A stretch of DNA of 64,000 bases from Fusibacter sp. 3D3 (GTDB taxonomy: Bacteria > Bacillota > Clostridia > Peptostreptococcales > Acidaminobacteraceae): NCBI RefSeq assembly GCF_001748365.1, contig NZ_BDHH01000004.1, positions 225,174-289,173 on the forward strand. Reading direction: 5' to 3'. The translations under genes were made by a program, and so were the position numbers. Below the pieces are notes generated by a model. That model was given only the letters and a program-made list of their open reading frames with translations. It made no database searches and was not told where the DNA came from. Shown in pieces: positions 2,411-8,462 of this stretch; position 1 is the stretch's first letter, and every line of letters begins with the position of its first letter.

Positions 2411-2454
2411 AAAAAAAATCCCTTTAAATCAATTATTACATCGATTTTAAGGGA
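2411..2454 (-). terminator. Rho-independent terminator of the signal-peptide gene
   Basis: On the minus strand the arms TCCCTTAAAATC and GATTTAAAGGGA form a 12-bp stem followed by a run of eight T. It lies 80 bp after the stop of the 43-aa peptide gene, so that gene is probably a monocistronic transcript. Confidence 0.7.
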
Positions 2455-2533
2455 CTTCTTAAGGATAGCGACACTTAAAATAGTACTGGAAAGTTTAAAA
2501 TTGTAAGGTCTCCATATTTAACATTATTAAGCT

Positions 2534-2665
2534 CTATACGAGTCTTGGAACATCTGCGTTTTCACCAACTAAGATTTCATTATTGCTTTGAACGTAAAGC
2601 GTTGCAACACCTGCATTCGTTAAAATTGTAAGTGCTAATAGAGCCATAATCATTTTCTTTTTCAT
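2534..2665 (-). CDS. Short exported pro-peptide, candidate quorum-sensing pheromone
   Basis: This 43-aa ORF has a basic N-terminus (MKKKMIMALLALTILT), a hydrophobic export segment to about residue 24, and a polar tail ending GENADVPRLV. The start ATG has a strong GGGAGGA ribosome site. The gene lies 191 bp from, and divergent to, an HTH/TPR regulator, and has its own terminator. This is the architecture of PapR/NprX-type pro-peptides, where the C-terminal 5-7 residues are the mature signal. The end ADVPRLV has the same Ala-Asp-x-Pro spacing as the PapR heptapeptide ADLPFEF. A candidate -35 TTGACC (2754-2759) and -10 TATATC (2732-2737) lie upstream, the latter inside a palindrome. The pheromone role is inference. 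Confidence 0.7.
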   Translation of the reverse strand: MKKKMIMALLALTILTNAGVATLYVQSNNEILVGENADVPRLV

Positions 2666-2728
2666 ATCCGTCCTCCCAATAAAAAGTATTTTTCAATGCT
2701 ATTTTATAAGGAATTCAGAACCTATGAT

Positions 2729-2744
2729 CCCGATATAAGTCGGG
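2729..2744. promoter_or_regulatory. Palindromic operator copy 1 (peptide-gene promoter)
   Basis: CCCGATATAAGTCGGG is an inverted repeat CCCGA-N6-TCGGG. It covers the candidate -10 of the peptide gene on the minus strand. It differs at one base from the copy at 2822-2837, and no third copy was found in the window. It is probably the target of the adjacent RRNPP-type regulator. Confidence 0.65.
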
Positions 2745-2821
2745 AAACTACTTGGTCAAAAATGATCACAAATCTTGTATTCATCACAGGTTTATTATAA
2801 ACTAGAATCAGAAACGATACC

Positions 2822-2837
2822 CCCGATGTAAGTCGGG
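2822..2837. promoter_or_regulatory. Palindromic operator copy 2 (regulator promoter)
   Basis: CCCGATGTAAGTCGGG lies 20 bp before the regulator start codon. It is just downstream of a possible promoter (TTGTAT 2775-2780, TAAACT 2798-2803). Its centre is 93 bp from copy 1. The position suits autorepression. Confidence 0.65.
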
Positions 2838-2856
2838 ATTTTGACAGGAGGCTTAT

Positions 2857-3807
2857 ATGTTTGCTTCTTATAACCTGATTGATTTCGGCAACCGCTTAAA
2901 AGAAATTCGTAAAAATCAAGGTATATCACAAGCTCAAGTTAAAAATACCGTCGGTTTAAACGAGGACACGCTGCGTAAAATTGAACATGGCAGTGTATTG
3001 CCTAGATACGATACTCTAGAGCTCATGTCACTTGTCTATAAAGAAGATCTTCTTAAATTACTCCCCTCTTATAGGACGAATCAAACGCTGAATGATTTAT
3101 ATGAGCACACAGACCAAATCATCACCGCTTACACGCTTGAAGACTTAGATAAGGTCAAAGCACAGTTAGCACATTTCAAAATTCAAAATCAATTTGACAA
3201 CACACTATACAACATGCTTGAACTCGAACAATTTGAACTCTACTTGACCAGTCTCCAAATCTATTTTGATGGCAATATTGTTCAGCGCAATCAAGCCTAT
3301 TCTCATCTCAAAGATGCGCTTAATAAGACCTTAATTAACTTTTCACCCTTCAACTTTCAAAAATACAAATACAATTTTTTTGAAATTAGAATTCTTTTGT
3401 TTCTTGGCATCATTCTTTACGATGTCAAACATGAAACGCTGAGCAATCAAGTTCTTGAGTTTTGCTTAAAATATCTACTTCAAAACTTTGCGCTTGAGGA
3501 ACGGATACAAAAGCTGATCATCAAAATTTACAACAATCTGGCTTACAATTATCATCTTTCAAATCAACATAAAAAAGTCATCCAAGTTTCGGATGACTGC
3601 ATTGCATTTTCACGAACACATCAAAATTTGTATGGTCTTGCAAATATCTACTATCGAAAAGGCATCTCTGCTTATCGCCTAAAGAAAAACGATTATCTGG
3701 ATCTTCTTAAGAAAAGCGTTATGCTCTCTGAAATTTCTGGAAATGACGATTTAGCCACTCTTTACAGACGTATTACACTTGAAAACTATGGTATACTCAT
3801 CGAGTAA
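2857..3807 (+). CDS. HTH/TPR peptide-responsive regulator (PlcR/RRNPP type)
   Basis: This 316-aa protein has an XRE-type helix-turn-helix at residues 10-65 (NRLKEIRKNQGISQAQV, then RKIEHGSVLPRYDTLELM). The remainder is all-helical with repeated Tyr/Leu/Asn pairs typical of degenerate TPRs, for example the YNNLAYNYHLSNQHKKVIQ segment. This is the layout of RRNPP regulators, which bind small re-imported peptides in the TPR groove. Length is slightly above PlcR (285 aa). The start has GACAGGAGG upstream. A pro-peptide gene is divergent from it and matching palindromes lie in both promoters. It overlaps the 3' end of convergent hydA by 11 bp. Its targets beyond this pair are unknown; no copy of the operator was found near other genes here. 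Confidence 0.8.
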   Translation: MFASYNLIDFGNRLKEIRKNQGISQAQVKNTVGLNEDTLRKIEHGSVLPRYDTLELMSLVYKEDLLKLLPSYRTNQTLNDLYEHTDQIITAYTLEDLDKVKAQLAHFKIQNQFDNTLYNMLELEQFELYLTSLQIYFDGNIVQRNQAYSHLKDALNKTLINFSPFNFQKYKYNFFEIRILLFLGIILYDVKHETLSNQVLEFCLKYLLQNFALEERIQKLIIKIYNNLAYNYHLSNQHKKVIQVSDDCIAFSRTHQNLYGLANIYYRKGISAYRLKKNDYLDLLKKSVMLSEISGNDDLATLYRRITLENYGILIE

Positions 3808-7907: not shown

Positions 7908-8462
7908 TCAAAACGGGAAACACCAGTCTTCTTTAAGTAAACCCATATTGATCCGATCATGGTATTGATTTTGAACCATACAGCCTCTTCTTATTCTACC
8001 TTCTTCAAGAAATCCAAGTTTTTGTCCAATCTTGACCATCGCTATATTGCCACTCCAAGTTGAAAAACCGATTCTTTGTATAGGCATCGTCTCAAAGAGG
8101 TACTGAATCCAAAGCGCTAAAGCCTCTGCGCCGATTCCCTGTCCCCAATATGCATCTTCAGGTATATCAATTCCAACCTCGGTCATATGCGGATCAGCAT
8201 AGTCATGATATACCACAACCCAACCCACATGCTGTCCATCACTTGCTTCAATTTCTAAAAATTTATAAGGCAGCTTTGCCCCTTCATCAAGCCATTTCTT
8301 GCGCCAATTTATAAGTGCAATTAAATCATACTCAGACCACGGTGCATCCATTGACCATGCCTTCAACTTGGGATTATTCCATTTTCTATACTGCGCTATA
8401 TCAGACCTTTTTGTTTTTCTTAATGCTGCATTTGGACCTTTTATAATAAATGCATCTGACAT
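7908..8462 (-). CDS. GNAT-family N-acetyltransferase (RimJ/RimL-like)
   Basis: This 184-aa acetyl-CoA-dependent transferase is of the RimJ/RimL/SpeG-like GNAT type. N-terminal ALRKTKRSDIAQYRKWNNP is followed by the central strand TEVGIDIPEDAYWGQGIGAEAL, which contains the acetyl-CoA pyrophosphate loop (Q-x-x-G-x-G/A). The distal RIGFSTWSGNIAMVKIGQKLGF, with the conserved Asn, is followed by a GRIRRGCMVQNQYHDRINMG tail. The start ATG has a weak GGAGGGCGC site. The substrate is unknown; related enzymes acetylate ribosomal N-termini, polyamines or antibiotics. The target duplication of the foldback element touches the last base of its stop codon without changing it. Confidence 0.85.
   Translation of the reverse strand: MSDAFIIKGPNAALRKTKRSDIAQYRKWNNPKLKAWSMDAPWSEYDLIALINWRKKWLDEGAKLPYKFLEIEASDGQHVGWVVVYHDYADPHMTEVGIDIPEDAYWGQGIGAEALALWIQYLFETMPIQRIGFSTWSGNIAMVKIGQKLGFLEEGRIRRGCMVQNQYHDRINMGLLKEDWCFPF

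Follow-up and report, generated by a model that had tools for sequence, protein, structure and literature searches.

The described signalling system that most resembles the locus analysed here is PlcR-PapR of the Bacillus cereus group, in which papR lies downstream of plcR and is read in the same direction. The operator of PlcR has been given the consensus wTATGnAwwwwTnCATAw and its regulon a size of 45 genes (PMC2464732); in the C-terminal FEF of PapR, the glutamate is described as contacting Lys89, Gln237 and Tyr275 of PlcR (PMC6568020). In solventogenic Clostridium, Qsp precursors are reported to be 39-50 aa long and to contain a conserved proline (PMC7376267, PMC7206700). They are encoded downstream of Qsr and share conserved Leu, Pro and Trp residues, the active QspB peptide being AEPTWGW (PMC7376267). 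In Paenibacillus, AloP is described as lying directly downstream of AloR in one operon, with SHGRGG as the active AloP13 peptide (PMC7425212). RRNPPA precursors that carry several pheromone copies are reported with up to six (PMC9765709) and up to eight of them (PMC11343458), and in complete genomes RRNPP_detector has identified 21 candidate subfamilies described as new (PMC10075063). In the open-access literature we found no paper joining Fusibacter and RRNPP, and the papers on Fusibacter and quorum sensing among the matches listed were, by title, community or environmental studies.

The stretch of DNA that we analysed, here called the window, is 64 kb long and comes from the 5.1-Mb genome of Fusibacter sp. 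3D3. It contains a regulator gene and, divergent from it with the two start codons 191 nt apart, a short ORF (Table 1). The sequence-only reading had described this ORF as an exported 43-aa pro-peptide with a ribosome site and terminator of its own, and that description is borne out for the gene, its ribosome site and its terminator, the N-terminus being export-like. The encoded precursor is MKKKMIMALLALTILTNAGVATLYVQSNNEILVGENADVPRLV. Its ATG is preceded, at a distance of 6 nt, by GGGAGG at 2672-2677, and by a simple hydropathy rule its N-terminus consists of a basic n-region and a hydrophobic core. Comparison with Fusibacter ferrireducens gives a dN/dS of 0.08 for the precursor, from 16 synonymous and 8 non-synonymous changes. 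All 8 changes in residues 1-26 are synonymous. Residues 27-36 vary more freely, and DVPRL (38-42) is preserved; the C-terminus reads EDVPRLL in this closest orthologue where the window has ADVPRLV, so that the C-terminal conservation looked for in the sequence-only reading is indeed present. Neither precursor contains Trp. Because of this dN/dS we conclude that, judged by its substitutions, the short ORF is a real gene under purifying selection.

Table 1. Features of the locus, with positions counted from the first nucleotide of the window.
Feature	Position	Strand	Remarks
Intrinsic terminator of peptide gene	2412..2460	-	-24.6 kcal/mol, z -7.25; U run on peptide strand
33-nt non-coding block	2474..2506	-	Same sequence in F. 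ferrireducens; follows the peptide stop codon and precedes the terminator
Putative pheromone precursor gene, 43 aa	2534..2665	-	Conserved ORF; export-like N-terminal signal, hydrophilic middle, ADVPRLV tail
Codons of putative mature signal ADVPRLV (residues 37-43)	2537..2557	-	Tail conservation
Putative -10 (TATAAAAT) of peptide promoter P1	2701..2708	-	20-22 nt from box 1
Putative operator box 1, CCCGATATAAGTCGGG	2729..2744	.	6-4-6 dyad; conserved in F. ferrireducens
Putative -10 (TATAAT) of second peptide-directed promoter P2	2794..2799	-	22 nt from box 2
Putative operator box 2, CCCGATGTAAGTCGGG	2822..2837	.	Between regulator -10 region and ribosome-binding site; conserved in F. ferrireducens
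HTH and helical-repeat regulator, putative cytoplasmic pheromone receptor, 316 aa	2857..3807	+	Ribosome-binding site AGGAGG 2846-2851
HTH_3 DNA-binding domain	2896..3051	+	E=1.6e-7; recognition helix ...NEDTLRK (residues 35-41)

The terminator hairpin recurs at the same position in F. ferrireducens, where the sequence of its stem is different (-22.7, z -5.5), and was absent from the output of a simple terminator scan. A 27-nt part of the neighbouring non-coding block occurs once each in the window genome and in F. ferrireducens when up to 3 mismatches are allowed; at the same tolerance it was not found in G016, a genome without the peptide. Across 2250-2900, known RNA families gave matches only far below their gathering scores.

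The regulators of the window genome and F. ferrireducens are 82% identical. Pfam TPR models do not match the window protein at E<=1, nor does RNPP_C. Among 41 members of its family, RNPP_C is matched by 7 (best 5.1e-9), the window regulator not being one of them, and TPR_8 by 6, both at E<=0.01. A profile of the family matched PlcR among PDB sequences at E 5.5e-7, over profile residues 6-296 and PlcR residues 2-273, and PlcR was its sole full-length match among the best 60 of 86 rows. The profile of the repeat region alone did not find PlcR in the PDB at E<=1, and PDB searches with single proteins gave mainly HTH matches, with PlcR not found. A structure model of the regulator is poor (pLDDT 56). 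Its top Foldseek match is PlcR:PapR7, at a TM score of 0.37-0.40 by query length for this low-confidence model, followed by Rgg and ComR. Residues 115-316 of the model align with TPR proteins, PlcR, Rap and NprR among them, but also with LGN, and for this half of the poor model generic TPR proteins score as PlcR does; the absence of a protein from a structural alignment list is no argument against any fold.

The locus resembles PlcR-PapR in having a putative receptor with an HTH and a possible TPR-type domain, a small precursor with an export-like N-terminus and its putative signal at the C-terminus, an Asp-aliphatic-Pro core (ADLPFEF in PapR, ADVPRLV in the window) and the 6-4-6 dyad geometry of the operator. 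As in RRNPP systems at large, the small precursor gene directly adjoins the receptor gene. RRNPP receptors have 250-500 aa and peptide-binding TPRs; the regulator has 316 aa, and its TPRs are putative. Other features differ from PlcR-PapR. The window box, CCCGAY-N4-RTCGGG, does not match the PlcR box TATGnAnnnnTnCATA; the peptide gene is divergent from the regulator rather than downstream of it; and, in contrast to the 45-gene PlcR regulon, no convincing site of the window type was found outside the locus. The parallel that the sequence-only reading had drawn between ADVPRLV and ADLPFEF holds for the Asp-aliphatic-Pro core, but Glu6 and Phe7 of the PapR peptide are absent. Its label of a PlcR-type regulator likewise holds as resemblance and fails as membership, because box, divergent layout and peptide end all differ. 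By these features, the pair is RRNPP-like, most like PlcR, and outside PlcR/PapR proper. Qsr-Qsp and QssR-QssP are similar in being clostridial RRNPP pairs with several paralogues per genome; AEPTWGW, however, lacks the D-aliphatic-P-R core, and the window precursor lacks Trp and is encoded divergently. The AloR-AloP systems resemble the present family in their large paralogous set, diverged TPRs, and peptide genes that are in some cases degenerate or missing, but the window peptide gene is divergent and not in an operon with its regulator.

Regulator homologues were found in 20 of 41 genomes of the bacterial family at E<=1e-3. Discarding proteins shorter than 285 aa or with E>1e-10 left 45 distinct regulators, among them that of the window, and 41 of these form the alignment used (A1). 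Upstream of each we searched the opposite strand, within 450 nt, for an ORF of 28-120 aa with a ribosome-binding site and a basic-then-hydrophobic N-terminus, a rule that was fixed once these loci had been inspected under looser criteria. Such an ORF accompanies 28 of the 45 regulators, versus 4 in 900 dinucleotide-shuffled upstream regions. Applied to 45 further ORFs of the window, each 120 aa or longer, the same rule found none (0/45), and downstream of the regulator it found one at 4 of 45 loci. When a [DE][ILVFMW]P core is also demanded, 20 of the 45 regulators retain their ORF and none of the 900 shuffles does. Conservation of the short ORF beside regulator homologues, on which the sequence-only reading had staked its proposal, is therefore what we observe. 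D[ILVFMY]P itself is present in 20 of the 28 post-signal parts, versus a mean of 1.76 and a maximum of 7 in 2000 shuffles. At 17 of the 45 regulators the scan detected no peptide, and three of these (L010, L020, L021) have one by eye.

The precursor cores include GEDIPRLY, GEDLPRLF, EDDVPRIF and GENDIPRVY within the family and SEDIPRIY, GADIPRIY and SADIPRIF outside it, and the ADVPRLV of the window fits into this D-aliphatic-P series. One precursor lies upstream of regulator L010 (G030:C2:292762-293688); it is 204 aa long and carries 18 tandem copies of NDIPRIL in 9-residue units, as against the six to eight copies reported for multi-pheromone RRNPPA precursors. The codons of the seven residues vary from copy to copy, always synonymously, which argues that the NDIPRIL segment is the active product. 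Precursors with two or three copies occur at L034, L044, L048, L052 and L105. The last of these belongs to a genome outside the order (G618:C241) and has three tandem GEDDLIRLH units, next to a receptor broken by an in-frame TAG. At L073, L074, L075, L109 and L114, of which L073 and L114 denote a single place, the precursors form a sub-branch with the core DDGLFEWN or DDGLIEWN, present twice in each, and adjoin regulators of the same family. One genome, G028, contains 11 regulator matches, some of them partial and many with a peptide ORF of their own.

Core sequence varies with receptor sequence. In Mantel tests on 23 hand-taken D-aliphatic/aromatic-P cores (other cores being left out), with no correction for relatedness, core distance correlated with distance in the TPR part (r 0.43, p 0.0002) and in the HTH (r 0.37, p 0.0002). 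Box distance, for 18 boxes, correlated with the HTH (r 0.25, p 0.003) and showed no such correlation with the TPR part (0.10, p 0.18).

Searched across the order, with seven candidates scored per genome, 82 of 297 genomes gave matches at E<=1e-10, and 59 of them lie outside the family. Fourteen of these 59 have matches at 1e-28 or better, and those of the other 45 are short and mostly confined to the HTH. In the family of G105, 4 of 20 genomes match at 1e-30, and a class-wide search, scoring five candidates per genome, gave 5 of 391 genomes at 1e-40. A mobile origin of the regulator was considered and rejected: no relatives were found at E<=1e-6 in 72,556 plasmid and 50,697 phage records, and no close one in viral contigs.

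Between the two genes lie two 16-bp dyads that the sequence-only reading had not mentioned, boxes 1 and 2 of Table 1. They sit in a 46-nt duplication (2700-2745 and 2793-2838) whose copies are 72% identical. A 6-4-6 dyad with CC-initial arms is found near the regulator start at 19 of the 45 loci, at 3 of 45 downstream, and in 44 of 2250 shuffles; arms within the family include CCCGAT, CCCAAT, CCCACT and CCCGTA. At 18 of 22 boxes, near-duplicates L006 and L038 having been left out, a hexamer that matches TATAAT at 5 or more of its 6 positions on the peptide strand starts 22-23 nt behind the box, versus a mean of 2.9 over all two-nt windows and 8 in the best non-overlapping window. Six of the 18 hexamers read TATCAT, and these may be the reverse of a TGATATAAT extended -10 promoter of the regulator. 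The usual site of a class II activator is near -42, and the fixed spacing places the box centre there. Box 1 has the spaced -10 as well; it lies 63 nt upstream of the peptide start with no regulator start beside it.

Box bases follow residues of the recognition helix. In all of 18 cases, the residue before TLR is Asp where box base 4 is G and Glu where it is A. Helices reading TLRK are paired with AT at bases 5-6 (14 of 14), those reading TLRR with other bases (4 of 4). Eight further loci, from which the pattern had not been derived (L016, L019, L069, L071, L076, L078, L106, L108), all agree for Asp/Glu and base 4, the box being weak at L071 and the outer bases different at L078 and L106. The resulting 26 of 26 refers to regulators with a recognisable box; the box scan left 33 of 53 regulators without one, including L027 and L035, whose variant boxes were used. 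The Lys/Arg rule initially referred only to base 5; because L076 did not obey it, it was extended to cover bases 5-6. In a tree of 24 rows, all agreeing and given one label for both traits (L106 and L108 are not among them), there are two supported and in all three independent Asp/Glu switches. Since so few switches are too few for significance, we regard a code linking helix residues to box bases as suggestive rather than proven.

We also searched for further operators. The exact pattern occurs twice in the window genome (G000) and twice in F. ferrireducens (G015), at this locus only, and not at all in G016. A reversed-pattern control matched G000 twice, so that the rarity of the box is by itself a weak argument and its position the actual one. 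The 64-kb window holds no box beyond the two with up to 2 mismatches, and, in the wider search, sites at one or two mismatches are about as numerous as in the controls. Thirteen mismatch contexts comprised 6 inside ORFs, 2 that are terminator-like, 1 long hairpin and 4 intergenic sites (L096, L097, L100, L103). L096 (G015:C3:74560) and L103 (G000:C25:5166) share the identical non-coding 16-mer CCATATTTAAATCGGG, two mismatches from the box and in each species embedded in a more extended stretch of conserved intergenic DNA; this leaves one candidate. With the spaced -10 added, the box was found at 0-1 mismatches at this locus only, other sites having 3 mismatches (one in G016, 2), like the control. 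A wider regulon was accordingly rejected, there being no convincing second operator in the genomes searched, whether mismatches or the spaced -10 were considered. Control of the neighbouring [FeFe] hydrogenase or of the MarR- and lon-like genes is not favoured either, because of the neighbour in F. ferrireducens, the peptide gene's own terminator and the lack of further boxes in the window: in that species, the regulator is followed first by an ORF that is GNAT-like by eye and not by the hydrogenase, a relative of this GNAT-like protein being encoded at 7908-8462 of the window.

Some receptors have lost the peptide. G016 (L089/L008) has a 60% identical regulator orthologue in a gene order that by eye is kept (lon-like, marR-like, regulator, hydrogenase), with neither peptide ORF nor exact box, and with SEGILRK in place of NEDTLRK in the helix. 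A paralogue in the window genome itself (L003, G000:C3:16990-17922) has an intact regulator and a peptide ORF cut by an in-frame TGA after the signal part. Both would fit listen-only or decaying receptors. At L027 (G028:C62), the regulator is intact and the peptide gene beside it apparently broken, its KDIPRTY core lying out of frame with the N-terminal part. RRNPPA receptors without a peptide of their own have been termed eavesdroppers in other families (PMC9765709).

From these comparisons we infer, with a probability of roughly 0.77, that the locus is an RRNPP-type pair, and it may be the complete quorum-sensing pair that the sequence-only reading had suspected. The precursor would be exported through its N-terminal signal and processed extracellularly into a peptide from its C-terminal region, approximately ADVPRLV as suggested by conservation, which an oligopeptide permease would re-import; the window genome encodes 19 oligopeptide-binding-type proteins (SBP_bac_5). 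Inside, the C-terminal helical repeat domain of the regulator would, to judge from its fold resemblance, bind the peptide, and the HTH would bind the CCCGAY-N4-RTCGGG dyads, as the comparative evidence indicates. Placed at about -42 of the peptide promoters by the fixed spacing, the regulator would activate the peptide gene in a positive loop, and box 2 probably limits expression of the regulator.

One alternative within this scheme concerns the direction of control. An RRNPP pair whose regulator is mainly a repressor relieved by peptide would suit the location of box 2, between the -10 region and the ribosome-binding site of the regulator, and there is a precedent in C. acetobutylicum, where the effects of QsrB overexpression were reversed by added peptide (PMC7376267). 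Yet the 22-23 nt spacing to a peptide-strand -10 is that of a class II activator and extends to box 1, which has no regulator start next to it. We therefore regard repression as the main mode as unlikely; the best reading is that the regulator needs the peptide in order to activate the peptide gene, as with PlcR and papR. Another suggestion, compatible with a signalling pair, is that the dyad before the regulator acts as an RNA hairpin controlling translation: its short stem, paired at 5 of 6 positions, encloses a loop of 4 nt and lies 8 nt ahead of the ribosome-binding site. But box 1 has the same design away from any ribosome-binding site of a regulator, and box bases vary with recognition-helix residues; we consider this very improbable.

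The short ORF might instead encode a small secreted effector, such as a bacteriocin-like peptide or membrane-active toxin, with the HTH protein as its dedicated regulator and no signalling at all. A small, exported-looking product with its own terminator would be expected in that case too, as would exact operators restricted to this locus in two genomes. Against it, the conserved part is an acidic D-aliphatic-P core and not a cationic or amphipathic body, this core is tandemly repeated in several relatives, up to 18 times in L010, and it varies with the C-terminal part of the receptor (relatedness being uncorrected). Nor do the neighbours, marR- and lon-like genes and the regulator, include any that is immunity-like by eye, and we judge an effector to be a distinctly poor prospect. 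As for a chance ORF, any sequence will contain many that are this short, but the low dN/dS, the conserved ribosome-binding site and terminator and the recurrence at homologous loci make this hardly credible.

More tentatively, and with the odds in our view somewhat against it, the locus may represent an undescribed clostridial RRNPP subfamily, centred on Fusibacteraceae and self-addressed, in the sense that the inter-promoter dyad is the sole address of the receptor and that address and pheromone are re-coded among paralogues. The address would be re-coded through Asp/Glu and Lys/Arg of the recognition helix together with box bases 4-6, and the pheromone through the residues around D-aliphatic-P. 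The family may also be among the 21 candidate subfamilies of RRNPP_detector. If no operator exists outside the locus, the receptor may exert its effect by contacting other proteins, as NprR and Rap do, or the peptide itself may carry the output.

For Clostridia other than Clostridium itself, little on peptide quorum sensing is found in the literature considered here. In a survey with seven RRNPPA profiles, the matching genera are reported to lie all within Bacilli but one (PMC9765709). Searches based on TPR models could miss the window receptor, because no Pfam TPR model matches it. With an apparently readable DNA code and signal code, cross-talk, specificity switches and eavesdropping receptors, in which the peptide is broken or lost and the receptor retained, would become testable in this family.
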